Assembly (NCBI RefSeq): GCF_013113735.1
Contig: NZ_CP053346.1
Coordinates: 3,486,001 to 3,550,000 of the forward strand
Direction of reading: 5' to 3'
DNA length: 64,000 nucleotides
From: Sphingomonas sp. AP4-R1
GTDB taxonomy: Bacteria > Pseudomonadota > Alphaproteobacteria > Sphingomonadales > Sphingomonadaceae
The notes beneath the pieces were generated by a model. It was given only the letters and a program-made list of their open reading frames with translations, was not told where the DNA came from and did no database searches. Shown here in pieces: positions 12,901 through 58,395 of this stretch (the first letter of the stretch is position 1; the number at the start of each line of letters is the position of its first letter). The translations under genes and the position numbers were made by a program.

Positions 12901-12949
12901 TCGCCATTTCGGCCGCGAGATCCTGTTCGGTGCGCGTGCGACCTTCTGA
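9944..12949 (+). CDS. TonB-dependent receptor with STN signalling domain
   Basis: About 1001-residue outer-membrane transducer and transporter. The order is a signal peptide (MILSRSALLGSVAIAAMVMM, ending near residue 26), then an STN (secretin/TonB N-terminal) domain at about residues 27-95 (RRFDIPAQPARTGIPLFAHQ, then ETALRQLLSRTDLQP). A plug with EDIVVSGF and FPDLNLAESIQRLPGVTI and a 22-stranded barrel ending RATF follow. STN domains contact FecR-type proteins, matching the upstream sigma/FecR pair. The GTG at 9944 is chosen: AAGGAGGGG (9929-9937) sits 6 nt before it, whereas the longer frame from GTG 9923 would have this ribosome site inside the coding region. A dedicated ECF promoter lies at 9862. 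It heads the pectin-lyase operon, so the cue is probably a pectic oligosaccharide. Confidence 0.93.
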   Translation: MILSRSALLGSVAIAAMVMMAVEAKAEVRRFDIPAQPARTGIPLFAHQAGIQILVPESQTDGLMVASVQGDMEVETALRQLLSRTDLQPVTFGKSILLKRPGANGAAVRTNYLQSAPMSAPAPAAPIAEDPAPGQPPEDIVVSGFRSSLDKALNIKESAPGQVDAILAEDMAKFPDLNLAESIQRLPGVTIDRENGEGRTISVRGLGSQFTQTRINGMEAQAALAGNGNRGFDFSMFASELFNSIKVNKTQSAELEEGSLGATVDLQTGRPLGFGAGLHYALSTQGSYNDLAKNTQPRIAGLVSWSNPDKTFGVLLSAAFSKRNPISESFNTTRWQAGDPTKGYGAVNSNNFGGCIPCTTDAQRNAVLGAFYPRIPRYTFGSVNLQRLGLTGSVQWSPSDKTEVAVDVLFGRYKSTAESPNIEAIGFSRSAGGVRDTIVDAYEIDPSKNTISYGVFDNVDVRVENGLEKTKSTFQQVSLNARHEFTDRLRGTIKLGESESRARTPLSVAYKFDALDKDGYTYDFRQNDRLPLISYGFDVTDGRNFTLTEWSKSRSGTNFRLRNASGGLEYDLLDGLTLKSGGAYHTYGFDTFGYQAAVTVLSGADRATDVTNLGKIVSLDGKLGIPSGSDLSYIAPDIDKISNFISLYDNPLVPAYNGTRRVQEKDAGGYLQADFSTELFGVKTRGNVGVRYARTAVDSTGFLAIGAANSNVTVTNDYQDWLPSFNLAIEPLHKVTVRLGAAKVMSRPSLGDLTPGGSLSTTTQRVTYGNPLLKPFRATNYDASIEWYFAPEALIAVAGFIKDIQSFTSQSTETVPWRSLGLPDSLLVGTPSSPDMDFDVTRTINGQGGTLKGIEIQYQQPFTFLPGVLRNFGFIGNATFVKSRVNYGAAGTNRLTGQSNRTFNATLYYETKKISTRVSAAYRGQYLVAFPGGNGNTEEGVNGTLNIDASFAYNLTKNITLQIQGVNLTDEYNDRYTDVTDRVSNYRHFGREILFGARATF

Positions 12950-42571: not shown

Positions 42572-45079
42572 TCAGGGCTGCGGGCAGGGCAGGATCAGTT
42601 CCGCATCGCTCGCCAGTCGCATCCTGGCGATGCCGAAGCGGACCGCGCCGTTCGTCTGCAATCCGAAGGGCGACGTGATCGTGTCCGCCGGCATGGTCGG
42701 GAAGCAGCGCAGCGGAATGCCGACATCGATCCACTTGCCGACCGGAATCGCATCGGGGGCGAGCGGGATCTCCTCGCCGCATTTCTCGCCGCAACGCATG
42801 CCCAGCATCGTGCCGGCCGGGATCGGCGTTTCGAACTGGAGCGAGACGACCATCATCACGTCGCCATTGCGCTCCCGGGTCAGATCGATCGGCGCCTGCG
42901 TGCCGAGTTCGACGCGCTGCCCGCCGCCGCCGGCCAGCGTGAAGCGTCGCGCGCCCTCCTGCACCAGATGATCGATCGCCTCCACCTTCACGCGTCCGCC
43001 CAGCGCCTGCGTGGGCACGGAGACGACGCGGGCGGGCGTGGACTCGCCGTCGCTGATCTGGAGCGACCAGCCCACGGTGGGCTCGCCGGCCGCCATCAGG
43101 ATGCCGCCCGTATCGACATCGGGCACGCCCGAATCCTCGCTGAGCGTCCGCCACGGCTTTCCACGTTCGCTTCCGTCCAGCCCGTAGCCGATCGGGAAAA
43201 GGTCGGCGCTGTCAGGGCGGGCCGTGACAGGCCAGCGCGTGGGCAGACGCCCGGTGAAGCGGGGTGCCGCGCCATGGGCGGGCGCGATCAGCTTGTCGGC
43301 CACGCCTTCTCCCTCGCTTCCCGGCAGCCACGCCACGACGAAGGCATCGGCCACGTTCATTTCGGGGCTCACGAACAGCGGCCGTCCGGTCAGCATCACC
43401 GCTACCACCGGTATGCCGGCGGCCTTGAGGCGCTTCATCGTCTCCAGCGGCTTGCGGAGATCCGCGCGGAGCTGGAGCGCCTTCAGGTCGCCCTGAAATT
43501 CGGCATAGGGCGTCTCTCCGAACACCACGATCGCCGCGTCCGGCTTGCGCGTGAACGTCCCGTCGGGCGCATAGTCGGCATGGCCGCCGCCCGTTTCGAT
43601 CGCGCCCTTGAGCCCCTCCCAGATCGTCGTCGTGCCCGGAAACTGCGAGCGCGGTACGGCGGTGCCCTGCCACGAAATCGTCCAGCCGCCGGATTGGCGC
43701 GTCATGTCGTCCGCGCCGTCACCCGCCACGAGGATACGGGCATTGGGCCTGAGCGGCAGCACGCCCTGATTCTTCAGCAGCACCAGAGATTTGGCGACCG
43801 CCTCGCGCGCGATGGCGCGATGCTCGGGCGATCCCAACGTCGCCCACTCGCCCGCGCCGGGGCGCGACGAGGGCTTGCCCGCCTCGAACAGGCCGAGCTG
43901 CATCTTCACGCGCAGGATGCGCGACACGGCATCGTCCAGCCGCGCCTTCGGGATCGTGCCGTCCTTCACCTGCGCGATCAGCGAGGCGTAGAGCGGCTTC
44001 CAGCTGTTCGGCGCCATATACATGTCGACGCCCGCATTCAGCACCTGCGGGCAGCTTTCGGGCGAGCAGCCCGGTAGCAAAGCGTGCGCGTTCCAGTCGG
44101 TCACGACGAAGCCGCCAAACTGCATCCGGCCCTTCAGCACATCGGTCAGCAGCCCGCGATTGCCGGCGATCTTCACGCCCTGCCAGCTCGAGAAACTCGC
44201 CATCACGGTCAGCACGCCGGCATCGATCGCCGGGCCGTAAGGACGGCCGTGAATATCCCGCAAAGCCTCCTCGCTGATGCGCGCGTCACCCTGGTCGCGG
44301 CCCTCGAAGGTGCCGCCGTCCGCCAGGAAATGCTTGGTGCTGGCCAGCACATGCAGGCCCTTCAGCATAGGGCCGCTATTGGGCGGCCCCTGCAGCCCGA
44401 GGATCATCCGGCCGGCATAGCTGGCGACCAGCGCGGGATCGGACGAATAGCCCTCATAGGCGCGGCCCCAGCGGTAATCCTGCGGCACGGTAAGCGTCGG
44501 CGCGAAGGTCCATTCCTGTCCGGTCACGCGGATTTCAGCCGCCGTGGCCGCGCCGATCCGCTCGATCAGATCGGGATCGCGCGCGGCGCCGAGGCCGATA
44601 TTGTGCGGAAAGAGCGTCGCGCCGATTACGTTGCTGTGGCCGTGCACGGCATCCGTGCCCCAGATGATCGGAATGGCCACGCCGCCCCCGGATTTATCGA
44701 CCGACGCCTCGTAAAATTCGTCCGCCAGCTGCAGCCATTTCGGCGCCAGTGCGCGATCGTCGCCATACGGGCCCGAATTGCCGCCGTTCAGCACCGAGCC
44801 GAGATGGTAGCGACGCACATCGTCGGGCGTGACGCTGGCGAGGTCCGCCTGCAGGATCTGGCCAACCTTCTCCTCCAGCGTCATCCGCGCCAGCAGATCG
44901 GCGATACGCTTTTCGGTCGCGGGGTCGGACTTTACCGGCCAGTGCGCTTCCGGCCAGATCTGGGGATGGACGGTGGCGGGCGCCGCTGCGGGCGTGGGAG
45001 AGGGCGCGGGCTGGGCCATCGCGACCCCTCCGATCGCCGAGCAGCACATGGACGCAGCAACAAGCCGAGATCGCAGCAT
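42572..45079 (-). CDS. GH3 exo-1,4-beta-glucosidase with C-terminal accessory domain
   Basis: 835-residue secreted family 3 beta-glucosidase (ExoP-like). A signal peptide (MLRSRLVAASMCCSAIGGVA, ending AMAQ) is followed by the (alpha/beta)8 domain beginning RIADLLARMTLEEKVGQILQ, KHFLADGG and FVVTDWNAH, whose Asp is the nucleophile. The alpha/beta sandwich follows (SLVLLKNQGVLPL), and then a C-terminal ~170-residue domain resembling the galactose-binding-like module of ExoP enzymes. GGAGGGG precedes ATG 45079. A probable LacI operator lies 54 bp upstream (45133). It is co-directional with the GPH transporter and LacI genes. Confidence 0.93.
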   Translation of the reverse strand: MLRSRLVAASMCCSAIGGVAMAQPAPSPTPAAAPATVHPQIWPEAHWPVKSDPATEKRIADLLARMTLEEKVGQILQADLASVTPDDVRRYHLGSVLNGGNSGPYGDDRALAPKWLQLADEFYEASVDKSGGGVAIPIIWGTDAVHGHSNVIGATLFPHNIGLGAARDPDLIERIGAATAAEIRVTGQEWTFAPTLTVPQDYRWGRAYEGYSSDPALVASYAGRMILGLQGPPNSGPMLKGLHVLASTKHFLADGGTFEGRDQGDARISEEALRDIHGRPYGPAIDAGVLTVMASFSSWQGVKIAGNRGLLTDVLKGRMQFGGFVVTDWNAHALLPGCSPESCPQVLNAGVDMYMAPNSWKPLYASLIAQVKDGTIPKARLDDAVSRILRVKMQLGLFEAGKPSSRPGAGEWATLGSPEHRAIAREAVAKSLVLLKNQGVLPLRPNARILVAGDGADDMTRQSGGWTISWQGTAVPRSQFPGTTTIWEGLKGAIETGGGHADYAPDGTFTRKPDAAIVVFGETPYAEFQGDLKALQLRADLRKPLETMKRLKAAGIPVVAVMLTGRPLFVSPEMNVADAFVVAWLPGSEGEGVADKLIAPAHGAAPRFTGRLPTRWPVTARPDSADLFPIGYGLDGSERGKPWRTLSEDSGVPDVDTGGILMAAGEPTVGWSLQISDGESTPARVVSVPTQALGGRVKVEAIDHLVQEGARRFTLAGGGGQRVELGTQAPIDLTRERNGDVMMVVSLQFETPIPAGTMLGMRCGEKCGEEIPLAPDAIPVGKWIDVGIPLRCFPTMPADTITSPFGLQTNGAVRFGIARMRLASDAELILPCPQP

Positions 45080-45132: not shown

Positions 45133-45146
45133 TGACAACGTTGACA
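45133..45146. promoter_or_regulatory. Putative LacI-family operator (TGACAACGTTGACA)
   Basis: 14-bp near-palindrome with one mismatch, 54 bp upstream of the GH3 start. It shares TGACAACGT with the sites at 47614 and 55857. Confidence 0.6.
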
Positions 45147-45170: not shown

Positions 45171-46430
45171 TCATCTCTTCGTGGGAGCATAGGCCAGCAC
45201 CACCAGCACCGCCGTCGCCGCGATCGCCGCCGTCGCCCAGCGAACGGAGGCATGCGGGATCATCAGCGTGATCGCGATCGCCTGCGGCGCCAGCACCTGC
45301 GCGGACTTCCGGGCGAGGTTCACCAGGGCGTAGACCTGCACAGCATAACCGCGCCCATTTGCGTCCAGCGCCTCACATTCGCTGACGGCTTCGGGGGCGA
45401 GCGACCACAGCATCACGGACGCGCCTTCGCCCGCCACGATCGCGACGGCGGTGGCGATCAGCACGGGATACAGGGTCGAGGAGAGGAGCGCGGCGGCGAT
45501 CGCGCCCGTCTGGAGAATCACCGCGGCGACCAGCACGGGCGACCGACCGAGACGGGCGCCCAATGCCGCCCAGATCGGCGCGCTGACGAGCAGGGCCAGC
45601 GGTGGGAAGAGGGCGAGATAGACGCCCATCCGCGCCACGCCGAATTCCTCGAACGTGAACAGCAGGGATTTGTCGAGCACGGTGATGGTCGTGCCGCTGA
45701 CGAGGATCGTTGCCAGCAGGCGCCTGAGCTGCGGCGAGGCGCGCAGGAGGCGGGCGAACGCGATCCGCGCCGAGGGGGCGTCACCGGTCGGGGAGGACAG
45801 GGGCGGGCGCCCGGCATCGGCCCCCGGCCGCACGCGTTCCCGCACGCCGAATGCCGCCAGCAGGAATGCCGGCACGGACAATATGGCGAGCAGCAGCGCG
45901 CCATGTCCGAAGCCCTCGCCCTCGGCGCCCGATCCCGCAAGTGCGACATAGACTGAGGCTGCGATCAGGCCGCCCGTCGCCGCGCCCTGCATCCGCACGC
46001 TGCTGAGCGCGAGCTGATCGCCGCGCAAGGGCGAGATGCGCGCGGTGAGGGCGCCGTAGGGGATGTTGCCGACGCTGTAGGCGATCCGCAGCAGACAATA
46101 GGTGATCAGCACCAGCGCGATCGTCGATCCGCCCGCCAGCGGCGGCATCGAGAAGGTGGCGGCGAGCAACGCCGCGGCGATCGGCCCGCCGACCGCGACC
46201 CAATAGCGCAGCGGAATATGTCGGCTCGCCCGATCGGCTATGACGCCGATCAGCGGGTCCGCGATCCATTCCACCAGTCCGCCGGCCAGGAACACGGCGG
46301 AAGCCACCGGGGGGCTCAGCCCCAGATGGCGGACGTAGAAGAACAGCAGATAGAATTCGGTGGATTGCCAGATGAAGTTGAAGCCGAGATCGCCCGCCGC
46401 GTAGCTCCACCGCTCGCGCCGGCCGATCAC
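45171..46430 (-). CDS. GPH-family (glycoside-pentoside-hexuronide) sugar:cation symporter
   Basis: 419-residue inner-membrane transporter with about 12 helices. WSYAAGDLGFNFIWQSTEFY and GLVEWIADPLIGVIADR (family GDxxxN and D-P-L-x-G-x-x-x-D-R type motifs) are GPH hallmarks. It would bring into the cytoplasm a sugar released by the GH3 enzymes. The start is GTG 46430, overlapping the stop of the LacI gene (GTGA), so regulator and transporter are translationally coupled. Confidence 0.88.
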   Translation of the reverse strand: MIGRRERWSYAAGDLGFNFIWQSTEFYLLFFYVRHLGLSPPVASAVFLAGGLVEWIADPLIGVIADRASRHIPLRYWVAVGGPIAAALLAATFSMPPLAGGSTIALVLITYCLLRIAYSVGNIPYGALTARISPLRGDQLALSSVRMQGAATGGLIAASVYVALAGSGAEGEGFGHGALLLAILSVPAFLLAAFGVRERVRPGADAGRPPLSSPTGDAPSARIAFARLLRASPQLRRLLATILVSGTTITVLDKSLLFTFEEFGVARMGVYLALFPPLALLVSAPIWAALGARLGRSPVLVAAVILQTGAIAAALLSSTLYPVLIATAVAIVAGEGASVMLWSLAPEAVSECEALDANGRGYAVQVYALVNLARKSAQVLAPQAIAITLMIPHASVRWATAAIAATAVLVVLAYAPTKR

Positions 46431-47464
46431 GTTGCGCGTGGACGCACTGCCGATGCCCGCACGATCAGTCGGTGGGCGTGCGGCTCCCGTTCCGCATGTT
46501 CGGCGCCCTCGAGGCTCGCGACCAGCATGTCGGCGGCGGCGCGCGCCATTTCGAACACGGGCTGCTGGATCGTCGTGAGCGGCGGCCAGGTGATGCGTGA
46601 CACTTCGGAATCGTCGAACCCCACCACCGAAAGCTCGTCCGGCAGGCGCAGCCCGATCTCGTGCGCCGCCATCAGCGCGCCGACGGCCATGTCGTCATTC
46701 TGCGCGAGGATCGCGGTCGGCCGGTCGCGGCGGGCCAGGATGCGGCGGCCGGCCTCCATGCCGCTGTCGAACGTGAACATGCCCGGCTCGATCATCGCCT
46801 CGGCCATGTCCAGTCCGCCTTCCGCGAAGGCGATGCGATAGCCGTCCAGCCGGGCGCTCGTCGCCGCATGGCTGGGGTCGCCGCAGATGATCGCGATCTT
46901 TCTGTGGCCGAGCGCGATCAGGTGGCGCGCGGCATCCTTGGCGGCCGCCACCTCGTCCAGCATCGTATAGGGCGCGATCTCCAGCTGGGTGGTCGGCGCG
47001 ATGCGCGCGAAGCGGATGCCGGCCTTCTCCAGATCGGCCAGCACACCCGGATGGTCGCAGACCGGCGGCGCCAGCACGACCCCGTCCAGCGCAGCGGATC
47101 GGGCGAGACCGACGACCTCCTCGGCATGCTCCACCGTGGATCCGATCGGCAGCACCACCAGCCGGTAATGGCTGCCGCGCAGCCGATCGATCACGCCCAT
47201 CTGCAGCTCGACCACGTAGCTGGGGCTGGGATTTTCGAACACGAGGCCGACCAGATAGGATCGGCGCCGAACCAGCGCCTGCGCCATCACGTTCGGATGG
47301 TAATTGAGCTGGTCGGCCGCCTCGCGCACGCGCTTGCGAAGCTCCTCGCTCACATGCGGTTCGCCGTTCAGCACGCGGGACACCGTCTTGGTCGAGACGC
47401 CGGCGAGACGCCCGACATCGATGATGGTGTTTCTCTTTTCCGGCACGTTCGGCCTCGCCCTCAT
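46427..47464 (-). CDS. LacI family transcriptional regulator
   Basis: 345-residue repressor. The helix-turn-helix and hinge are NTIIDVGRLAGVSTKTVSRV and LNGEPHVSEELRKRVREAA (residues 12-50). The periplasmic-binding-like effector domain has LVGLVFENPSPSYVVELQMG, HRKIAIICGDPSHAATSARL and AILAQNDDMAVGALMAAHE, then SVVGFDDSE. It is transcribed divergently from the TBDR at 47722, with a site sharing TGACAACGT between them. It is the probable repressor of the GH3, transporter and TBDR genes of this locus; the inducer is likely a beta-glucoside or its product. Confidence 0.95.
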   Translation of the reverse strand: MRARPNVPEKRNTIIDVGRLAGVSTKTVSRVLNGEPHVSEELRKRVREAADQLNYHPNVMAQALVRRRSYLVGLVFENPSPSYVVELQMGVIDRLRGSHYRLVVLPIGSTVEHAEEVVGLARSAALDGVVLAPPVCDHPGVLADLEKAGIRFARIAPTTQLEIAPYTMLDEVAAAKDAARHLIALGHRKIAIICGDPSHAATSARLDGYRIAFAEGGLDMAEAMIEPGMFTFDSGMEAGRRILARRDRPTAILAQNDDMAVGALMAAHEIGLRLPDELSVVGFDDSEVSRITWPPLTTIQQPVFEMARAAADMLVASLEGAEHAEREPHAHRLIVRASAVRPRAT

Positions 47465-47721: not shown

Positions 47722-50700
47722 ATGCAAGGCTTTAGCCGGTCGGCGGCGCTCGTGCGCTCCGTTTCCGCGACCGCAATCACGACATGCCTGTTGCTTCCCA
47801 CGGCGGGCCACGCCCAGTCCGTAGCCGGCACGGCTGCGGCGAGCGCGCCGATCGTGACGGCGCAGGCCGAAAATCCGGAAGAGATCGTGGTCAGCGGCGT
47901 ACGCGCTTCGCTGGAACGCTCGATCGCGATCAAGCGCGAATCGGTCGGCGTGGTGGATGCGATCTCGGCCGAGGATATCGGCAAGTTCCCTGACACGAAC
48001 CTCGCGGAATCGCTCCAGCGCATCACGGGCGTTTCGATCAACCGCCGCAACGGCGAGGGTGCGCAGGTGACGGTGCGCGGCTTCGGCCCGCAATATAATC
48101 TGGTCACGTTGAACGGTCGCCAGTTGGCCGCCTCCGACCAGACCACGGTGGGCGGCGACGAATCCGCGGACTTCAACCGGAATACCAGCCGCTCGTTCGA
48201 CTTTTCGAACCTCGCATCGGAAGGCGTGAAGACGCTGGAGGTGTACAAGACCGGCCGCGCCGCCATCCCGACGGGCGGCATCGGCGCGACCATCAACGTC
48301 GTCACGCGCAAGCCGCTGGATGCCAGCCAGAGTGGCTTCACCGGATCGCTGGGGGCCAAGGCCAATTACGACACCAGCGTCGATGCCTGCCTGCACTGCG
48401 GATCGAAGGTCACGCCCGAAGTCTCCGGCCTCGCGGGCTGGAGCAATGCCGACCAGACGTTCGGCGTCTCGCTGTTCGGCAGCTACCAGAAGCGCAATTT
48501 CTCCAACGTCAACGCGACCTCGAACGCCTGGAACATCACCACGCTTTCGGAATTTCTCGCGCCCGACAGCGGCAACGTGAATGCCGCCACCAAGATCACC
48601 AATGCGCCGTCCGACCCGAATGCGCTGGTCGCCCGGCCGAACGACTTCCGCTACCATTTCTCGGAAGGCACGCGTGAGCGCATCAACGGGCAGGGCGTTA
48701 TCCAGTTCAAGCCGACCGACCGGTTCGAAGTGTCGGCCGACGCGCTGTTCGCACAGAACAAGCAGAGCGAGCGCCGCTCGGACCAGTCGAACTGGTTCAA
48801 CCGGCCGTTCGATCAGGTCACGTTCGATCAGGGCCATTCGGTCGCCACGGCGGTCTATCTGCATGAGGTGATTGCGGGCGAGACCAAGGATGCGGGCTTC
48901 GAGCAGCAATATCGCGCGCAGAAATCGAAGCTGCAGGATTATGGCCTCAACGCGAAGTGGGATCTGACCGACAATTTCCGCGTCGTGGCAGATGGCCATT
49001 ATGGCCGATCCACCAGCACACCGGACAATCCGAACGGGATGAGCTCCACCCTCGTCGCGATCAGCGCGCCGACGCTGGCGGCCCATTCGGTGGATTATAC
49101 CGGCGGCTTCCCGATCCAGACCGTCACCTTCGTCGATCCGGCGACGGCCAGTGCGCTGCATCCGGCGGTGAAGGGCAATGGCAATGGCGTGCTGGACGTC
49201 GGCGATCTGGGCAGCCAGGTCGGTCGTCAGGTGGCGACGACGTTCAAGCAGACCCTGAAGGAAGCGCGGCTGGATGCGGGCTGGGATCTGGGCGGCGGCA
49301 GCCGCGTCGATTTCGGCGGCGATTATCGCACGACCAACACGCGATCGACCCAGACCAGCTATTATCAGACGCTCGGTGACTGGGGCAACGCCGCGCCGCG
49401 CGACGTGAACCAGATCGCGCCGGGGCTGGTGCAGGCCTTCTGCCTGGCCTGCAAATTCACCCATTATGATCCGAAGGCGACCGGCGACGGCCTGATCGCT
49501 TTCCGCGCGGAGGATCCGGCCGCGCTCTACAATGCGCTGTCGAAATATTATTCGAACATTCCGGGCCATGCGAACGCGATCAACGGCTTCAACGATGATC
49601 GCGTGAAGGAGGATATCTGGGCGGCCTATGCCCAGGTCACCTGGAAGGCGAAGCTGGCCGGGCACGATGCCAGCCTCGTCACGGGCCTGCGCTATGAGCG
49701 GACGACCGTGAAATCCAATTCGCTGCAGGCCGTGCCGACCGCGATCGTCTGGCAATCGGACAATGATTTCACGACGATCGTCTCGTCGAGCTATCAGCCG
49801 CTTGCCGCCAAGGGCAAATATAACAATCTGCTCCCGTCGATGGATTTCCAGGTCAATCTCCGCAACGACCTGATCGCGCGTCTGTCGGCCAGCCGGACGA
49901 TCTCGCGGCCGAGTTACGGCAATCTCTTCGCCTCGACCTCGACCAAGGTACCGAGCGACGCGACGGCGGTCGGCGGCAAGATTTCGGCCGACCAGAATGA
50001 TGCCGGGCTGCAGCCGCTGATCTCGGACAATGTCGATCTCTCGATCGAATGGTATTTCAAGCCAGCCAGCTACATTTCGGCGGGCTTCTTCGAGAAGCGC
50101 GTCCACAATTTCATCGGCAATACGGTCGTCCAGAAACCGCTGTTCAACCTGCGCGATCCCAGCTCCGGCGCCGCCGGCAGCCGATCGGGCACGGCGAAGG
50201 CGCAGCTGCAGGGAATCGGGGCCGACATCACCAACGTCAACCTGTTCACCTATACCGCATTGCTCCAGCAGAATGGCGGCAACGTCGCCGCAGCGACCTC
50301 GACCTTCCTCGCCAATTACAATGCCACGGCGCGCGCGCTGAATCAGGCGTTCGTGGACAGCACGCTGGCGGCGGTCGACATCATCGCCGACAACAATGAT
50401 CCGCTGTTCAACTTCAATGTGAACACGCCGATCAACAATCGCGATGCGAAGCTCTACGGCTTCGAGGTGGCCGGCCAATATTTCTTCGGGAATACCGGGA
50501 TCGGCGTCGCGGCCGCCTATACGTTCGTGCGCGGCAATGTGAGCATCGACGTGGCGGCCGATCCGAATGTCGATCAGTTCGCGCTGGTCGGCCTCAGCGA
50601 TACGGCCAACGCCACGCTGATCTATGACAAATACGGGATTTCGGGGCGCCTGAGCTACAATTGGCGCGGCAAGTTCCTGTCCGCCACCAATCGCGACGCC

Positions 50701-50904
50701 TTCCACAATCCCGAATTCACGAAGGCTTATGGTCAGGTGGACGTGAACATCAGTTACGACATCACGCCGCACATCGCCGTGTCGTTCGAAGGCATCAACA
50801 TCTTCGAGCAGGGCGTGAAGACCTATGCGCGCTCCCCGAACGAGATCTGGTTCGCGCAGGAAGCGGCGGCGCGTTACCTGATCGGCGCGCGGATCAAGAT
50901 GTAG
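47722..50904 (+). CDS. TonB-dependent receptor, probable beta-glucan oligosaccharide importer
   Basis: 1060-residue outer-membrane receptor. A signal peptide (ending HAQ near residue 32) precedes EEIVVSGV (about residues 53-60), the plug FPDTNLAESLQRITGVSINR and AQVTVRGFGPQYNLVTLNGR, and a barrel with many aromatic strand ends. There is no STN domain. AGGGG precedes ATG 47722. A terminator follows at 50988, so SapC and the downstream genes may depend on read-through or their own promoter. Substrate is inferred from the two flanking GH3 genes and the LacI operator. Confidence 0.93.
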   Translation: MQGFSRSAALVRSVSATAITTCLLLPTAGHAQSVAGTAAASAPIVTAQAENPEEIVVSGVRASLERSIAIKRESVGVVDAISAEDIGKFPDTNLAESLQRITGVSINRRNGEGAQVTVRGFGPQYNLVTLNGRQLAASDQTTVGGDESADFNRNTSRSFDFSNLASEGVKTLEVYKTGRAAIPTGGIGATINVVTRKPLDASQSGFTGSLGAKANYDTSVDACLHCGSKVTPEVSGLAGWSNADQTFGVSLFGSYQKRNFSNVNATSNAWNITTLSEFLAPDSGNVNAATKITNAPSDPNALVARPNDFRYHFSEGTRERINGQGVIQFKPTDRFEVSADALFAQNKQSERRSDQSNWFNRPFDQVTFDQGHSVATAVYLHEVIAGETKDAGFEQQYRAQKSKLQDYGLNAKWDLTDNFRVVADGHYGRSTSTPDNPNGMSSTLVAISAPTLAAHSVDYTGGFPIQTVTFVDPATASALHPAVKGNGNGVLDVGDLGSQVGRQVATTFKQTLKEARLDAGWDLGGGSRVDFGGDYRTTNTRSTQTSYYQTLGDWGNAAPRDVNQIAPGLVQAFCLACKFTHYDPKATGDGLIAFRAEDPAALYNALSKYYSNIPGHANAINGFNDDRVKEDIWAAYAQVTWKAKLAGHDASLVTGLRYERTTVKSNSLQAVPTAIVWQSDNDFTTIVSSSYQPLAAKGKYNNLLPSMDFQVNLRNDLIARLSASRTISRPSYGNLFASTSTKVPSDATAVGGKISADQNDAGLQPLISDNVDLSIEWYFKPASYISAGFFEKRVHNFIGNTVVQKPLFNLRDPSSGAAGSRSGTAKAQLQGIGADITNVNLFTYTALLQQNGGNVAAATSTFLANYNATARALNQAFVDSTLAAVDIIADNNDPLFNFNVNTPINNRDAKLYGFEVAGQYFFGNTGIGVAAAYTFVRGNVSIDVAADPNVDQFALVGLSDTANATLIYDKYGISGRLSYNWRGKFLSATNRDAFHNPEFTKAYGQVDVNISYDITPHIAVSFEGINIFEQGVKTYARSPNEIWFAQEAAARYLIGARIKM

Positions 50905-50987
50905 CGGGCGGAGGCGAGGGATGGTCTTTCACCGGATCCGGCGAAGAACATCCCTCCCTTTCGGGACCCGAACATCTTATGGAACTT

Positions 50988-51022
50988 GCCGGTCGAGGCG
51001 GGGAGCGGCCGGCCCTTTTTTT
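50988..51022 (+). terminator. Intrinsic terminator after the TBDR
   Basis: Stem GCCGGTCG / CGGCCGGC (one G-T pair), 10-nt loop, then CC and a run of seven T. It is 83 nt after the TBDR stop and 22 nt before the SapC start. Confidence 0.75.
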
Positions 51023-51044
51023 GATCGCCCCGAAGAGCGCGTCG

Positions 51045-51776
51045 ATGTCACCTCCGATATTGTTGAATAATCTGGATCATCAAGATCTGCGGATCACACT
51101 GGGGCATGACCCGGCCTTCGGCGACGCGGTCAACCAGACGCTCGTCTTCCCGACCGAATATGAAGCGCTGCAGCGGGACTATCCGATCCTGTTTCGCGCG
51201 AAGGCGGGCGGGGGCTATCATTCGGTCGTGCTGCTCGGCTTCGACCGGGACGAGAATCTGTTCCTCGAGGACGGGCGCTGGAAGGCGCGGTCCATTCCGG
51301 CGCTGCACCAGCGCGGCCCCTTCTCGATCGGGCTTCCCGGCCGCGACCCGGATGGCACGCCATCCGGAGAGCCGATGATCCACGTCGATCTGGATCATCC
51401 GCGCGTGACGGCGCCGGGGGGCGAGCCCGTCTTCCTGCCGCACGGCGGCAACGCGCCCTATCTCGATCATGTCTCGAAGGTGCTGCGGTCGATCTTCCTC
51501 GGCAGCGAGGCGAGCGGGCCGATGTTCGCGGCGTTCGAACGTTTCGGCCTGATCGAGCCGGTGACGCTGGAGGTCGATCTCGGCAATGGCCGCCATGTTG
51601 CGATCCCGGATTGCTTCACGATCGGGCGGGAGAGGCTGCGCGGTCTGGATGGCGATGCGGCGGCGGCCTTGCATGCGCAGGGTTTCCTCCAGCCGGCGAT
51701 GTGGGTGGCGTCGTCGCTCGGCAATCTCGCGCATCTGATCGATTTGAAGAACGCCCGCACGGCGCAGTTCGGATGA
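51045..51776 (+). CDS. SapC family protein
   Basis: 243-residue protein of the SapC family. Family-like segments are NQTLVFPTEYEALQRDYPIL, RDENLFLEDGRWKARSIPAL, RGPFSIGL and FGLIEPVTLEVDLGNG. No clear signal peptide or helix is seen. ATG 51045 is preferred because an upstream ATG at 50979 would place a terminator hairpin inside the gene. The stop overlaps the next start (ATGA). SapC proteins beside TBDR, cupin and halogenase genes recur in Sphingomonas, Caulobacter and Xanthomonas relatives, but their biochemical role in this set is not established. Confidence 0.88.
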   Translation: MSPPILLNNLDHQDLRITLGHDPAFGDAVNQTLVFPTEYEALQRDYPILFRAKAGGGYHSVVLLGFDRDENLFLEDGRWKARSIPALHQRGPFSIGLPGRDPDGTPSGEPMIHVDLDHPRVTAPGGEPVFLPHGGNAPYLDHVSKVLRSIFLGSEASGPMFAAFERFGLIEPVTLEVDLGNGRHVAIPDCFTIGRERLRGLDGDAAAALHAQGFLQPAMWVASSLGNLAHLIDLKNARTAQFG

Positions 51777-52801
51777 TCCCCGCGCCGCGCGATGTCCAGA
51801 CGATCGAGGCTGTCGGTGGGGGCATCCTGCCCTTCGCCGACATCGCCGCCGCCAACGAACCGGTGCTGCTGAAAGGCGCCGTCCGCGACTGGCCGATCGT
51901 GGCGCTGGGGCGGGAGGGGCCGCGCGCGGCGATCGCCTATCTCGCCGGTTTCGATGCGGGGCTCCCGGTGGTCGTCTATTCCGGCCCGCCGGAGATAGGG
52001 GGCCGTTTTTTCTACGATGACCGGATGGGGATGAACTTCACCGCGCGGAAAGGCGGGCTGACCGAGGTGCTCGCCCGGATCTCCGCCCATCTCGGCGATC
52101 CCGCCGCGCCCGCTCTCTATGTCGGCTCCACCGATCTCGACACGTTCCTGCCCGGCTTCCGCGCGGCCAACGATCTGCCGCTCGGGCCGCCCGTGACGAC
52201 GCATCAGGACGTTCTCGCCAGCATCTGGATCGGCAACCGGACCACCGCTGCCACGCATTACGACATGTCGAACAACATCGCCTGCTGCCTCGTCGGCCAC
52301 AGGCGCTTCACGCTCTTCCCACCCGATCAGATCGCCAATCTCTATCCGGGGCCGCTGGAGCCGACGCCGGGCGGGCAGGTCGTCAGCATGGTCGATCCGC
52401 GCGCGCCCGATCTGGAGCGTTATCCGCGCTTCCGCGAGGCGGCCGCTTACGCCCGCGTGGCAGAGATGGAGCCGGGCGACGTGCTGCTCTATCCGGCGCT
52501 GTGGTGGCACAATGTGGAGGCGCTCGACGCCTTCAATGTTATGGTCAATTACTGGTGGAATGCGGTGGCGTCGCATGCCGACACGCCGATGACGACGCTG
52601 CTCCACGCGATGCTCAGCCTGCGCGATCGGCCGCTGGCCGAGAAGCAGGCGTGGCGCGCGGTCTTCGATCATTACGTGTTCGGCGATGCGGATGTGCCGC
52701 GCGCGCATCTGCCCGAGGCCGCGCAGGGGTTGCTCGGGCCATTGGGGCCGCTCGACGCGCGCAGGCTGCGCGCGATGCTGCTTCAGAAAATGAACCGATA
52801 A
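51773..52801 (+). CDS. JmjC/cupin-like dioxygenase-type protein
   Basis: 342-residue protein with a cupin-8/JmjC fold. It opens ILPFADIAAANEPVLLKGAV, typical of the family, with putative Fe(II) ligands in THYDMSNNIACCL (H-x-D) and the distal His in LYPALWWHNVEAL. A 2-oxoglutarate-dependent hydroxylase activity is likely by family but the substrate is unknown. It overlaps sapC by ATGA and is followed after 17 nt by the halogenase-like gene, so the three are one transcription unit. Confidence 0.88.
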   Translation: MIPAPRDVQTIEAVGGGILPFADIAAANEPVLLKGAVRDWPIVALGREGPRAAIAYLAGFDAGLPVVVYSGPPEIGGRFFYDDRMGMNFTARKGGLTEVLARISAHLGDPAAPALYVGSTDLDTFLPGFRAANDLPLGPPVTTHQDVLASIWIGNRTTAATHYDMSNNIACCLVGHRRFTLFPPDQIANLYPGPLEPTPGGQVVSMVDPRAPDLERYPRFREAAAYARVAEMEPGDVLLYPALWWHNVEALDAFNVMVNYWWNAVASHADTPMTTLLHAMLSLRDRPLAEKQAWRAVFDHYVFGDADVPRAHLPEAAQGLLGPLGPLDARRLRAMLLQKMNR

Positions 52802-52818
52802 GAAGGGGGAAGGGCGCG

Positions 52819-54321
52819 ATGCCGAAAGTGATGAAGCGCGTGGTGATCGCGGGCGGCGGCACGGCCGGCTGGATCACCGCCGCCGCGCTCAGCAAACAGC
52901 TCGGCCCGCTCCTGGATATCACATTGGTCGAGTCCGACGAGATCGGCACGATCGGCGTGGGCGAATCCACCATCCCCACCGCGCGCACCTTTCACGGGCT
53001 GATCGGGATCAACGAGCAGGCGTTCATGGCGGAGACCGGGGCCGCCTTCAAACTCGGCATCTCGTTCGAGCATTGGGCGCGGATCGGGGACATGTATTTC
53101 CATGCCTTCGGGGAGATCGGCAAATCCACCTGGATGGGGCCGTTCCACCATTTCTGGCTGCAGGCGCGCGAGCGCGGCATCGGCGGCTCGCTCGACGATT
53201 ATTCCTATGAATTGAAGGCGGCAGAACAGCGCCGGTTCGCCACGTATGAAGGCTCGCCGATCGGCTACGCCTATCATCTCGATGCGGGGCTCTATGCGCG
53301 CTACCTTCGCAAGGAGGCCGAGACGAGCGCGATGCGCCGGATCGAGGGCAAGATCCAAAAGGTCGAGCAGGATGGCGAAAGCGGCCACATCACGGGGCTG
53401 GTGCTGGAGTCCGGCCAGCGGATCGAGGGCGATCTGTTCATCGATTGCACCGGCTTTCGCGGCCTGCTGATCGAGCAGACGCTGGCCGCCGGTTATGAGG
53501 ATTGGAGCCACTGGCTGCCCAATGACAGCGCGATCGCCAGCCAGACGCGCTCTGTGGAGCCGGCCGTCCCGTATACGCGCGCGATCGCGCATGGCGCGGG
53601 CTGGGAATGGCGGATCCCGCTGCAGCATCGTGTCGGCAACGGCCTCGTCTACAGCAGTCGTCACCTGACCGACGACGAGGCGCATGCGCGCTTCCGCGAG
53701 CGGATGGAGGGCGAGATCCTGATCGAACCCAAGCTGATCCGTTTCCGCACCGGGCGCAGGCGCGACGTGTGGGTGAAGAATTGCATCGCGCTGGGGCTCG
53801 CCGGTGGTTTCGTCGAGCCGCTGGAATCCACCAGCATCCACATGATCATGATCGCCGTGATCCGCCTGCTGCAGTTGTTCCCGTTCGGCGACGATCAGCC
53901 GGTGCTGGCGCGGCGCTTCAACGATCTGGCCGAGCGCGAGATCGAGGGCATCCGCGATTTCGTCATCATGCATTACAAGCTCACCGAGCGCGACGACACG
54001 GCCTACTGGCGCGCATGCCGTGATATGGCGATCCCGGATACGCTCCGCGCGCGGCTCGATCTGTTCCGCGAGAGCGGGCATGCCTACCAGACGCCCGACG
54101 AACTGTTCCGCCTCGATTCCTGGGTGCAGGTGATGTTCGGCCAGCGCTGGGTGCCGCAGAGCTACCACCACATGGCCGCGATCATGGACACGGCCCGGCT
54201 GGAGGAAGCGCTGGGCGATCTGCGGCGCGGCATCGTCCAGGCTGTCGCCAAGCTGCCGACGCAACAGGCTTTCCTCGACAGCTATTGCCGCGCCGATCCG
54301 GCGATCGCCTCGGTGCGCTAG
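52819..54321 (+). CDS. Flavin-dependent tryptophan halogenase-like protein
   Basis: 500-residue flavoprotein of the tryptophan 7-halogenase family. The FAD-binding start VVIAGGGTAGWITAAALSKQ, GVGESTIPTARTFHGLIGIN, the candidate catalytic Lys in FKLGISFEHW, and the halogenase signature WEWRIP (GWEWRIPLQHR) are all present, as is GLAGGFVEPLESTSIHMIM. So the machinery to form HOCl/HOBr-type intermediates looks intact. Homologues beside TBDRs have been reported to halogenate free indole-type compounds in vitro, but a natural substrate is not known to me. ATG 52819 follows AAGGGGGAAGGG. It is third in the sapC-cupin-halogenase unit. Confidence 0.92.
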   Translation: MPKVMKRVVIAGGGTAGWITAAALSKQLGPLLDITLVESDEIGTIGVGESTIPTARTFHGLIGINEQAFMAETGAAFKLGISFEHWARIGDMYFHAFGEIGKSTWMGPFHHFWLQARERGIGGSLDDYSYELKAAEQRRFATYEGSPIGYAYHLDAGLYARYLRKEAETSAMRRIEGKIQKVEQDGESGHITGLVLESGQRIEGDLFIDCTGFRGLLIEQTLAAGYEDWSHWLPNDSAIASQTRSVEPAVPYTRAIAHGAGWEWRIPLQHRVGNGLVYSSRHLTDDEAHARFRERMEGEILIEPKLIRFRTGRRRDVWVKNCIALGLAGGFVEPLESTSIHMIMIAVIRLLQLFPFGDDQPVLARRFNDLAEREIEGIRDFVIMHYKLTERDDTAYWRACRDMAIPDTLRARLDLFRESGHAYQTPDELFRLDSWVQVMFGQRWVPQSYHHMAAIMDTARLEEALGDLRRGIVQAVAKLPTQQAFLDSYCRADPAIASVR

Positions 54322-54335
54322 GCGGGGAGGGGGCG

Positions 54336-55595
54336 ATGCTGCTGTTCGGCCAGATCGCGCTGATCCTGCTGCTCGCGCGATGCGTCGGGTGGATCGGGCG
54401 GCGCTGGCTGGGCCAGCCGCAGGTCGTGGGCGAGATGCTGGCGGGCGTGCTGCTCGGGCCGTCCGTGTTCGGCGCGCTGCTGCCAGGCCTGCAGGCGACG
54501 ATCTTTCCCGCCGGCAGCCGTCCGGTGCTGCAGGCGCTGGGTCAGTTCGGCATTGCGCTCTACATGTTCCTGATCGGCACGCATTTCCGCACCGATCTGT
54601 TCCGCCACAAGGCGCGCGGCGCTTTCGCCGTGTCGCTGGCGGGCATCGCCACGCCCTTTCTGGTCGCCGTTCCGCTGGCGGCCCTGTTGATCGGGGTGCC
54701 GGGGCTGTTCGTGGAAGGCCTGTCGCGCCCGGCGGCGACCCTGTTCCTCGGTGCCTGCATCTCGCTCACCGCCTTTCCGATGCTCGCGCGGATCATCGAC
54801 GAGCGTGGCCTGTCGAACAGCCAGACCGGGACACTGCTTCTCTCGGCCGCGGCGTTTGACGATGCCTGCTCCTGGGGCGTCCTCGCGATCGTGCTGGCGC
54901 TGTTCGAGAGGGCCAATGTCGCGATCCTCGCGATAGCCGGCGGGATCGGCTGGACCCTGCTGGTGCTGTTCGGGGCGCCGTTGCTGTTCGCCCCGCTGGC
55001 GCGGCGGGTCGAGCAGGCGGGGGGAATGAGTGGGGGCGTGCTGGCGATCACGCTCGCCTTGTTCTGTGTGTCCGCGTTCGTGACGGATGCGATCGGGCTG
55101 CATGCCGTCTTCGGTGCCTTCCTGCTGGGCACGCGCATCCCGCGCGGCGCCTTTGCGGAAGGGCTTCAGCAGAAGCTCGACGGCTTCGTGAGCGTGGCGC
55201 TCCTGCCTTTGTTCTTCACCTATTCGGGGCTGGTGACGCGCTTCGATCTTCTCGTCGGCGCCTCCCTGCTGCCTGCGACCTTGCTTCTGCTCGTCGCGTC
55301 GATCGCGTCGAAAGGGGGTGCCTGTTTCGTGGCGTCGCGGATCGCGGGCGAGGACCGGCGCACCGCCTTCGGCATCGGCGCTCTGATGAATGCGCGCGGG
55401 ATGATGGAATTGATCATCATCGGCATTGGTCTGGAGAAGGGCATCATCGGCGCGCCGCTGCACGCGATGCTCGCCCTGATGACGATCGTGACGACGATGG
55501 CGGCGGGCCCGGCCTTCGATTGGGTGAGGCGCGGCAGGACGGACCCGCTTTCCGCACCGGGCGGCGGGGCGGCGTCGGCCCGGTCGGACGCATAG
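54336..55595 (+). CDS. CPA2-type cation:proton antiporter
   Basis: 419-residue membrane protein with about 12 helices, of the monovalent cation:H+ antiporter-2 family (KefB/GerN-like). Hallmarks are GQPQVVGEMLAGVLLGPSVF, GIALYMFLIGTHF, SAAAFDDACSWGVLAIVLAL (the transport Asp pair), HAVFGAFLLGTRIPR and GALMNARGMMELIIIGIGLE. There is no fused TrkA-N domain. GGGGAGGGGG precedes ATG 54336, only 14 nt after the halogenase stop, so it belongs to the same unit; what it exchanges in this setting is unclear. Several hairpins follow at 55642-55738. Confidence 0.9.
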   Translation: MLLFGQIALILLLARCVGWIGRRWLGQPQVVGEMLAGVLLGPSVFGALLPGLQATIFPAGSRPVLQALGQFGIALYMFLIGTHFRTDLFRHKARGAFAVSLAGIATPFLVAVPLAALLIGVPGLFVEGLSRPAATLFLGACISLTAFPMLARIIDERGLSNSQTGTLLLSAAAFDDACSWGVLAIVLALFERANVAILAIAGGIGWTLLVLFGAPLLFAPLARRVEQAGGMSGGVLAITLALFCVSAFVTDAIGLHAVFGAFLLGTRIPRGAFAEGLQQKLDGFVSVALLPLFFTYSGLVTRFDLLVGASLLPATLLLLVASIASKGGACFVASRIAGEDRRTAFGIGALMNARGMMELIIIGIGLEKGIIGAPLHAMLALMTIVTTMAAGPAFDWVRRGRTDPLSAPGGGAASARSDA

Positions 55596-55815: not shown

Positions 55816-55829
55816 TGGTAGCGTTATCT
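55816..55829. promoter_or_regulatory. Putative second-class LacI-type operator (TGGTAGCGTTATCT)
   Basis: Shares TAGCGTTATC with the site at 55965. Palindromes around a central CG of this type are typical of LacI-family regulators. It differs from the TGACAACGT class, implying another regulator. Confidence 0.4.
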
Positions 55830-56019: not shown

Positions 56020-58395
56020 ATGAACGGACGCTTCCGCCCCAAAAGCCACATGATCGCGATCGCCTGTCTGGCGCTGCTGGGATCCGCATCCCGCGCGGCG
56101 ACGGTCGCCCCGCCGATCTACAAGGATGCGACCCGCCCGATCGAGGCGCGCGTGGACGATCTGCTCGGCCGGATGACGCTGGAGGAGAAGATCACCCAGA
56201 TCACGGCGATCTGGGAAGCCAAGGCGACGATCTTCGACAGCAAGCTCCAGCTCGATCCCGCGAAGCTGCGCGCGCGCTATCCGAACGGGATCGGCCAGTT
56301 CACCCGGCCCTCGGACGCCAAGGGCCCGGTCTCGCCGCGTGTCGTGCCGGGGCGCGGCGTCCGCCAGACGACCGATCTGGTCAACGCGCTCCAGCGCTGG
56401 GCGGTGAACGAGACGCGGCTGGGCATCCCGATCCTGTTCCACGAAGAGGCGCTGCACGGCTATGCCGCGCCCGGCGCGACCAGCTTTCCGCAGGCGATCG
56501 CGCTCGCCTCCTCCTGGGATCCCGATCTCGTCCGCCGGATCAACGGCGTGATCGCGCGGGAGGTGAGCGCGCGCGGCGTCAGCCTCGCACTGTCGCCCGT
56601 CGTGGACATCGCCCGCGATCCGCGCTGGGGCCGGATCGAGGAGACGTTCGGCGAGGATCCCTATCTGGTCGGCGAGATGGGCGTCGCGGCTGTCGAAGGC
56701 CTGCAGGGCCCCGGCCGCGCGCGCCTGATAGGCCCCGATCATGTGTTCGCCACGCTCAAGCATCTCACCGGCCACGGCCAGCCGGAGAGCGGCAACAATA
56801 TCGGCCCGGCCCCCGTCTCCGAACGCGAACTGCGCGAGAATTTCTTCCCGCCGTTCGAGGAGGTGGTGAAGCGCACCGGGATCGAGGCGGTGATGGCCTC
56901 GTACAATGAAATCGACGGCATGCCCTCGCACGCCAATCGCTGGCTGCTGCACGATGTGTTGCGCGGCGAGTGGGGCTATCAGGGCGCGATCGTCAGCGAT
57001 TATTCGGCGGTCGATCAGCTGCGCGACATCCACCACATCACGGACAGTCTGGAAGGCGCCGCCACGCGCGCGCTGGCGGCGGGCGTCGATGCCGATCTGC
57101 CCGAGGGCCTGTCCTATGCCACGCTGGCGAAGGCGGTGCGCGAGGGGCGGGTGCGCGAGGCGGATGTGGATGCGGCCGTGCGCCACATGCTCGATCTGAA
57201 GTTCCGCGCGGGCCTGTTCGAGCATCCCTATGCCGATGCCGCCCGCGCCGAGCGCATCACGAACGATGCCGAGGCGAAGGCGCTGGCGCTGCTCGCCGCC
57301 CAAAAATCGATCACCCTGCTCAAGAATGACGGCATGTTGCCGCTTGCCATGCCCGCCGCCGGCAGCGGAAAGACGATCGCGGTGATCGGGCCGAGCGCGG
57401 CGGTGGCGCGGCTCGGCGGCTATTATGGCCAGCCGCCGCACAGCGTCTCGATCCTCGAAGGCATCCGCACCAAGCTGGGCACGCGCGCCAACATCGTCTT
57501 CGCGCAGGGCGTGAAGATCACCGAGAATGACGATTGGTGGGAGGATGCGGTCAAGCTCGCCGATCCGGTCGAGAACCGGAAACTGATCGCGCAGGCGGTG
57601 GAGGCCGCGCGCGGCGCCGACACGATCATCCTGTGCATCGGCGATACCGAGCAATCGAGCCGCGAGGGTTGGGCGCCCAACCATCTCGGCGATCGCGACA
57701 GCCTCGATCTCGTCGGCCAGCAGCAGGACTTGTTCGATGCGCTGAAGGCGCTCGGCAAGCCGATCACGGTCGTCCTGATCAACGGCCGTCCGGCCTCCAC
57801 CGTCACGATCGCGGAGCAGGCCAATGCGCTGCTCGAAGGCTGGTATCTGGGCGAGCAGAGCGGCAATGCCGTGGCCGACGTTTTGTTCGGCACGGTCGAT
57901 CCGGGCGGCAAGCTGCCGGTGACGATCCCGCGCTCGGTCGGCCAGCTGCCGGTCTATTACAATGCCAAGCCGTCCGCGCATCGCGGCTATCTGTTCACCG
58001 AGAATGCGCCCCTGTTCCCGTTCGGCTGGGGCCTCAGCTACACCCGCTTCGAGATCGGCGCGCCGCGCCTGTCGCGCAGCAGGATCGGCACGGGCGAGAC
58101 GGTGCAGGTCGCGGTCGATGTCCGCAACAGCGGCGAGCGCGCCGGGGACGAGACGGTGCAGCTCTACATCCACGATGTCGTGAGTTCGGTGACGCGCCCG
58201 ATCAAGGAATTGCGCGGCTTCCAGCGTGTGACGCTGCAGCCGGGCGAGCGCAGGACGCTCACCTTCACGCTCACGCCGCACAGTCTGGAGATGTGGAACG
58301 ATCAGATGCGCCGCGTCGTCGAGCCCGGCACGTTCGAGATCATGACCGGCCCCAATTCGGTGGACCTGAAGAAGGCGGTTCTCACCGTCGAATAA
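56020..58395 (+). CDS. GH3 beta-glucosidase/beta-xylosidase (BglX-like)
   Basis: 791-residue secreted family 3 glycosidase. It has a signal peptide (HMIAIACLALLGSASRA), an (alpha/beta)8 domain (RVDDLLGRMTLEEKITQITA; KHLTGHGQPESG), the nucleophile Asp in IVSDYSAVDQL, a second domain (KSITLLKNDGMLPL; INGRPASTVTIAEQANALLE) and a C-terminal fibronectin-III-like domain (VQVAVDVRNSGERAGDETVQ then LYIHD). It is a different subfamily from the ExoP-like GH3 at 42572, so the two probably cut different linkages or chain lengths. AGGAGAGG precedes ATG 56020. The promoter region holds operators of two classes. Confidence 0.93.
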   Translation: MNGRFRPKSHMIAIACLALLGSASRAATVAPPIYKDATRPIEARVDDLLGRMTLEEKITQITAIWEAKATIFDSKLQLDPAKLRARYPNGIGQFTRPSDAKGPVSPRVVPGRGVRQTTDLVNALQRWAVNETRLGIPILFHEEALHGYAAPGATSFPQAIALASSWDPDLVRRINGVIAREVSARGVSLALSPVVDIARDPRWGRIEETFGEDPYLVGEMGVAAVEGLQGPGRARLIGPDHVFATLKHLTGHGQPESGNNIGPAPVSERELRENFFPPFEEVVKRTGIEAVMASYNEIDGMPSHANRWLLHDVLRGEWGYQGAIVSDYSAVDQLRDIHHITDSLEGAATRALAAGVDADLPEGLSYATLAKAVREGRVREADVDAAVRHMLDLKFRAGLFEHPYADAARAERITNDAEAKALALLAAQKSITLLKNDGMLPLAMPAAGSGKTIAVIGPSAAVARLGGYYGQPPHSVSILEGIRTKLGTRANIVFAQGVKITENDDWWEDAVKLADPVENRKLIAQAVEAARGADTIILCIGDTEQSSREGWAPNHLGDRDSLDLVGQQQDLFDALKALGKPITVVLINGRPASTVTIAEQANALLEGWYLGEQSGNAVADVLFGTVDPGGKLPVTIPRSVGQLPVYYNAKPSAHRGYLFTENAPLFPFGWGLSYTRFEIGAPRLSRSRIGTGETVQVAVDVRNSGERAGDETVQLYIHDVVSSVTRPIKELRGFQRVTLQPGERRTLTFTLTPHSLEMWNDQMRRVVEPGTFEIMTGPNSVDLKKAVLTVE

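Follow-up and report, generated by a model that had tools for sequence, protein, structure and literature searches.

The window analyzed here is a stretch of 64,000 nt from Sphingomonas sp. AP4-R1 (RefSeq assembly GCF_013113735.1, contig NZ_CP053346.1, positions 3,486,001 to 3,550,000 of the forward strand), whose 5.27 Mb genome is in two contigs. Our subject is a set of four genes on its plus strand, here called the quartet, which we find conserved beyond chance in other genomes. The first gene (47722..50904) encodes a TonB-dependent receptor (TBDR) of the TIGR01782 family, 1060 aa long with a signal-peptide-like N-terminus (655.5 bits against a cut-off of 310), from a receptor clade tied to the next two families. 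After a spacer of 140 nt (50905..51044) come SapC (PF07277, 243 aa, 51045..51776; 194.8 bits, cut-off 28.9), a Cupin_8/JmjC protein of 342 aa (51773..52801) identified as an FIH-like Fe(II)/2-oxoglutarate (2OG) oxygenase by its profile match, structural relatives and iron triad, and a flavin-dependent halogenase of the BrvH/Xcc4156 type (PF04820, 500 aa, 52819..54321; 629 bits). The SapC and cupin genes share 4 nt, the gap from cupin to halogenase is 17 nt, and a CPA2 antiporter gene (54336..55595, plus strand, profile match) follows exactly 14 nt later. These gene calls agree with the first-pass annotation of the window, which had described a TBDR, a closely packed trio and the antiporter. 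The halogenase is the only PF04820 match in the host genome, which has two SapC genes.

To see how constant the set is, we searched public-genome contigs with 13 aligned cupins whose loci pair a halogenase with a TBDR and, in 8 cases, also hold SapC. Out of at least 592 confirmed cupin relatives the 80 best were taken, a sample weighted to the close relatives of the window cupin. It counts loci and not genomes (Sphingomonas sp. PP-CE-1G-424 gives two contigs, and some are metagenome-assembled). TBDR, SapC and cupin stand together in all 80 loci, and the halogenase is in the same block in 75. The gene caller found the cupin in 79; SapC in the block and an adjoining TBDR accompany it in 79 of 79 and a halogenase in the block in 74 of 79. 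The 80th (L283) has a complete quartet, missed by gene calling only. Among the 79, the receptor of L239 is cut by a contig end and the genes of L264 are split. The halogenase of L255, of the same halogenase clade, lies 2.6 kb upstream of its receptor, and L245, L253, L254 and L264 lack one in the fetched stretch; their genomes hold 15, 14, 12 and 18 PF04820 matches, respectively, fragments included. Quartet hosts are Sphingomonadales (Sphingomonas), Caulobacterales (Caulobacter), Hyphomonadaceae, Maricaulis, Aquisalinus, Microbulbifer, Gilvimarinus, Povalibacter and Xanthomonadaceae (Xanthomonas). RefSeq annotation places TBDR, SapC, cupin-like protein and halogenase side by side on both plasmids checked, 2 of 10 with a cupin match.

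With 93 first-look TBDR candidates in the host genome and an assumed 4,900 genes, we roughly estimate that any one gene has a 4% chance of adjoining a TBDR. Because all 80 cupin loci hold TBDR, SapC and cupin, the association exceeds chance. The recurrence of the trio beside TBDRs in relatives, asserted in the first-pass annotation, is thus borne out, and the genome survey of family co-occurrence that it had named as a check comes out non-random. The whole quartet also occurs in an unverified "Bacteriophage sp." record from human faeces (L289, MT835646.1), which is probably a bacterial contig mislabelled as phage.

Receptor phylogeny gives a second view of the association. We compared 87 SapC-linked receptors, 37 halogenase-only receptors and 60 TIGR01782 controls chosen away from the halogenase matches of the genome survey described below, using FastTree. 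One clade takes in 85 of the 87 SapC-linked receptors plus one control, L189 (support 90; 99 without L065), with L073 and L074 falling outside it; halogenase linkage as a whole takes 7 changes on this tree. That control (G003:C1:1497900-1501340) belongs to the quartet clade, with no SapC or halogenase match near it in its genome, and offers a natural point of comparison for receptor modification. The halogenase tree (184 sequences) places 82 of 91 SapC-linked members in one clade of 86 (support 100) and the other nine in another part, rich in WxWxIG; the singletons are dispersed (27 changes, six labels), 14 sequences from maltodextrin-type loci form two groups, and most members of tandem arrays group by slot. 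Halogenase clades largely parallel receptor clades. SapC of receptor loci falls mostly in one clade of 87 (support 98), separate from stand-alone SapC, with four exceptions.

The pairing of halogenase and receptor extends beyond the quartet. We searched 59 genomes, the host's own included, with PF04820, finding matches at E<=0.001 in 37 and over the cut-off in 34, some being weak matches of other flavin adenine dinucleotide (FAD) enzymes. Every match above 100 bits was taken with its surroundings, together with the loci of SapC matches, and genes were called by a custom script. This yielded 77 halogenase blocks, the window's included. A TBDR directly flanks 57, of which 52 were recognized by our own profiles and five by Pfam (L083, L124, L126, L127 and L138, the last three with an OMP_b-brl_4 barrel). 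Among the other 20, six are second halogenases of TBDR-halogenase loci (L082, L088, L093, L097, L129, L130), three are at the ends of contigs (L137, L145, L147), a TBDR stands one to three genes off in four (L081, L119, L134, L140), and seven have no recognized TBDR nearby (L085, L136, L139, L141, L143, L144, L146). The halogenases of L141, L143 and L144, of the WxWxIG/A type and without a recognized adjoining TBDR, form a clade (support 100); at L143 the neighbour is a DUF2252 gene. A frequent locus type runs LacI, TBDR, halogenase, then glycoside hydrolase (GH) families GH13, GH13 and GH97, by its enzymes a maltodextrin locus. These genomes hold 14 such cupins, the window's included: 8 with SapC and 6 at SapC-less loci with two to four halogenases and a TBDR (L070, L077, L079, L096, L121, L135).

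Halogenase arrays at those six loci and at L076 each have one degenerate member without WxWxIP, with the catalytic Lys replaced by R, G or T. The seven degenerate halogenases form one clade (support 99), which suggests a retained pseudoenzyme. A further accessory family, DUF6445 (PF20043), occurs in or next to the halogenase-receptor loci L066, L072, L078, L274, L276 and L282.

Both enzymes of the window quartet look active from their sequences. As the first-pass annotation had it, the halogenase keeps WxWxIP (WEWRIP at residue 262) and the candidate catalytic Lys (K78), along with GxGxxG (GGGTAG at residue 12) and EPLESTS. The Lys is invariant in 83 of 83 aligned halogenases, namely those longer than 440 aa from named loci, plus the window's. 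Its closest solved relatives are Xcc4156 (577 bits), 9luq (523) and BrvH (442), as against at most 304 bits for tryptophan halogenases. The best stretches against PrnA and RebH stop at query residues 417-450, and the one against tryptophan 5-halogenase (2wet) reaches 486. The iron triad of the cupin (HxD...H: H162, D164, H246) is kept by 95 of 95 cupins aligned from loci of this kind, and the pair R177 and R178 is likewise invariant among the aligned cupins. The best solved matches are FIH and JMJD5/KDM8, which are protein hydroxylases, followed by JMJD7 and C2orf60.

The N-termini of SapC, cupin and halogenase, judged by eye, are not signal-peptide-like, so the cupin and the halogenase probably act in the cytoplasm. 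Predicted structure gives a confident model for SapC, yet no fold match in the PDB. The second, stand-alone SapC of the host genome (L063:8673-9437; G000:C1:1422717-1423379) lies beside an FAD-linked oxidase (PF02913/PF01565), and in the 18-kb stretch around it none of the other modelled families was called. Counting this one, 11 of the 16 stand-alone SapC loci examined have a homologue of the oxidase.

Spacing sets the receptor gene apart from the trio. Median spacers are 134 nt from TBDR to SapC (76 loci), 1 nt from SapC to cupin (78) and 12 nt from cupin to halogenase (71). Folding z-scores average -3.23 over 77 TBDR-SapC spacers, the window's included, with 64 below -2, versus -0.6 over 76 segments upstream of TBDRs, with 9 below -2. 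A stem followed by a T run occurs in 43 of the 77 spacers; the segments upstream of TBDRs show one in 2 of 76, and mononucleotide-shuffled spacers in 3 of 77. The window spacer has a terminator-like hairpin (50987-51014) with seven T at 51016-51022, a possible attenuator; its folding z of only -0.15 counts against this hairpin, which is also unlisted by a hairpin scan with loops of at most 8. Partial termination at such a hairpin would leave the cell with less of the enzymes than of the receptor. It could equally be that the hairpin merely ends the receptor transcript, the trio having a promoter of its own.

Genes around the quartet are far less constant than the quartet itself. The window locus is, in keeping with the first-pass annotation, a sugar locus with a LacI regulator: on the minus strand are a LacI-family regulator divergent from the TBDR (46427..47464), a GPH sugar symporter (45171..46430) and a GH3 enzyme with an ExoP C-terminal domain (42572..45079), all by profile match, and on the plus strand a second GH3 (56020..58395), beta-xylosidase/beta-glucosidase-like and below the NCBIfam cut-offs. 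Operator-like 12-mers occur upstream of the first GH3 (45134-45145) and of the second (at 55817, 55853 and 55966). Allowing at most 2 mismatches, the operator pattern has 29 window matches versus 16.5 expected, a circular comparison since the pattern was derived from such sites; none in the list of window matches is directly upstream of the TBDR. No scaffold-building (natural-product) enzyme was found among nine window genes scanned, in keeping with the first-pass annotation. Two more TIGR01782 receptors lie in the window at 2267-5080 and 10358-12946.

Across the 79 quartet loci LacI occurs in 20, a GH in 22 (four models only: GH3, GH13, GH16 and GH97), DUF6445 within the block in 3, and an adjoining CPA2 gene in 1. 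On this last count we rejected the CPA2 antiporter, which had been proposed as part of the set, as a core member, and treat it as accessory here. CPA2 genes do appear in a few halogenase-receptor loci (L102, L130, L276, pieces in L072), once directly after the quartet block, in Luteimonas. At most two places from a quartet there are 306 genes, 55 of them labelled (including 18 LacI and 14 GH3), and 159 of the rest are at least 240 aa long; the commonest cluster among unassigned genes spans 10 loci. We scanned the first 106 of the 159 proteins with Pfam (loci L208-L260, the Xanthomonadaceae loci lying outside the scan). The commonest families, chemotaxis receptors, MFS_2 and MFS_1, match 5 of the 106 each. 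These flanks lean to plant-polymer sugars (GH2, GH9, GH43, GH67, GPH symporters), with no constant pathway, and those examined hold no recurrent inner-membrane transporter, exporter or scaffold synthase. The 25 commonest of the 124 families matched include no nonribosomal peptide synthetase (NRPS), polyketide synthase (PKS), iron or exporter family.

What, then, would the trio act on? We tentatively favor, at somewhat less than an even chance, a module dedicated to its receptor, in which the receptor is hydroxylated and halogenated before export. The TBDR, SapC, the FIH-like 2OG oxygenase and the BrvH-type halogenase are encoded in one conserved gene order, and the hairpin after the TBDR, seen in 43 of 77 spacers, would keep enzyme amounts below that of the receptor. 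In the cytoplasm the cupin would hydroxylate the nascent receptor and the halogenase would halogenate an aromatic residue of it before export, SapC serving as an adaptor or a third enzyme. The modified receptor would then import its ligand, in the window locus probably a plant oligosaccharide.

Several lines of evidence point to the receptor as the target. It accompanies the SapC-linked cupin in 80 of 80 loci, with varied flanks and no other constant partner seen; 85 of 87 such receptors share one clade, halogenase clades largely follow receptor clades, and the cupin triad and halogenase Lys are invariant. The anatomy of the loci argues the same way: ligand chemistry in the cytoplasm needs an inner-membrane transporter, and none recurs; a secreted compound needs a scaffold and an exporter, and the flanks examined show neither; modifying the receptor ahead of its export takes no further part. 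The best solved cupin relatives are known protein hydroxylases. BrvH, for its part, does not halogenate free tryptophan, and its active site is reported to be one that could admit larger substrates (PMC5945002).

A target residue was sought in columns W358, W554, W677, W981, R133, D424, R1037 and R1051 of the receptors; loop columns such as W358 and R1037 shift with the alignment. In the main clade all 85 receptors have W358 and W554, and 83 of 85 have W677. In the receptor model (pLDDT, the predicted local distance difference test, 84.2) all three, along with N681 and D682 next to W677, would lie at extracellular ends or loops, taking the topology from strands and short turns.

Several observations weigh against the receptor as target. 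Another halogenase-linked clade has W554 in 17 of 17 receptors, but the residue is found in 1 of 14 receptors of the GH13-locus clade and in 7 of 60 controls. Nor does any aromatic residue combine a level of 70% in each of the three halogenase-linked groups with rarity in controls; the aromatic columns that attain this level in all three are also common there (at least 52%). The unlinked receptor L189 keeps W358, W554 and W677, and a shared ligand explains invariant extracellular Trp, Asn and Asp residues equally well. Operon inheritance could likewise account for gene order and co-phylogeny. In addition, 52 of the 77 halogenase blocks are one halogenase alone, without SapC, cupin or DUF6445; SapC also occurs without a receptor; and C2orf60, presumably the tRNA-modifying enzyme TYW5, is also a relative of the cupin, making a protein substrate not certain.

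Five independent pairs give, for and against, 1.9 and 1.0 for W554, 0.4 and 0.1 for R133, and 2.3 and 0.1 for R1051. None of these can reach significance; W554 is unsupported and R1051 is only a lean. No candidate for a universal target residue emerged among the columns counted. A loss of aromatic residues, sought in the receptors of the quartets without a halogenase, led nowhere; those four genomes hold 12-18 PF04820 matches. The residue test neither shows nor excludes receptor modification, and each halogenase clade could have a site of its own. Of the roles offered in the first-pass annotation, modification of the receptor itself is the one that fits the survey best; it stands unproven, with no common target residue.

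The strongest alternative, which we consider unlikely, is that the trio makes or tailors a small halogenated and hydroxylated molecule (siderophore-like, a signal or a peptide) for the receptor to take up again. Tailoring is a typical role of both 2OG oxygenases and halogenases, and BrvH slowly brominates free indole at C3 (PMC5945002). The lack of NRPS, PKS, iron and exporter families among the commonest flanking families speaks against it, as does the LacI regulator of the window locus, though missing genes could lie elsewhere in the genome.

Modification of another protein or peptide, or of SapC itself, with the receptor merely co-regulated, seems improbable. The degenerate members of tandem halogenase arrays suggest protein complexes and SapC paralogues occur without a receptor; against this, of the partners seen in the survey the receptor is kept most strictly (80 of 80).

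Least probable of all is that the ligand is modified once imported, for instance at an aromatic group, a feruloyl group or an aglycone of plant oligosaccharides, a reading which draws on the GH3, LacI and GPH symporter genes of the window and on GH67, GH43, GH2 or GH9 near some quartets, but sits poorly with same-family halogenases adjoining receptors of GH13/GH97 loci, whose sugars have no aromatic group, with the 57 of 79 quartet loci that lack all four modelled GH families, and with the absence of a recurrent inner-membrane transporter. The plant-glucoside aglycone suggested in the first-pass annotation is disfavored on the same grounds, the neighbours being variable.

Returning to the receptor as target, we regard it as possible, if doubtful, that receptor hydroxylation and halogenation in the cytoplasm by enzymes encoded next to the receptor, with SapC as adaptor or third modifier, is the native role of orphan BrvH/Xcc4156-type halogenases. 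The survey ties the relatives of these halogenases to TonB-dependent receptors and, within one clade of receptors, to SapC and a JmjC oxygenase as a fixed set. The outcome is a short list of candidate substrates and partners for orphan halogenases. If the receptor is the target, outer-membrane proteins would, to our knowledge, not have been seen modified in this way before; should a metabolite be the target, the receptor gives a pointer to it.

Neither the quartet operon nor the halogenase-receptor pairing was found in the literature searched, nor was a function for the trio, in line with the first-pass annotation. BrvH and Xcc4156 (PDB 6frl and 6y1w; also 9luq) share their catalytic motifs with the window halogenase. 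The word TonB occurs nowhere in the main text of either paper, nor do SapC and cupin in that of the BrvH paper. The gene brvH is adjoined by a second halogenase gene (PMC5945002), and it is stated that the natural substrates of BrvH and of the halogenases from Xanthomonas remain unknown (PMC7336383). In Xanthomonas, carbohydrate utilization loci with TBDRs (CUT loci) have been described, and the window is like them in its TBDR, LacI regulator, inner-membrane symporter and glycosidases; halogenase, SapC and cupin are absent as words from the main text of that report (PMC1790865). With a TBDR, LacI, a GPH symporter and two GH3 genes the window qualifies as a carbohydrate utilization locus; the quartet in general does not, since at some of its loci neither LacI nor a modelled GH was found in the vicinity. 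The JmjC oxygenases FIH, JMJD5 and JMJD7 resemble the window cupin in the Cupin_8 match and the HxD...H triad, and FIH differs in having what we take to be its 2OG-binding Lys where the window cupin family has the invariant pair R177 and R178. Neighbourhoods of JmjC, halogenase and TBDR genes, probably of the same or a related type, were reportedly noted by Iyer, Abhiman, de Souza and Aravind (NAR 2010), who are said to have proposed halogenated siderophores or peptide modification for them. New in the present analysis are the survey of the quartet, the clade of its receptors and the terminator-like hairpin.

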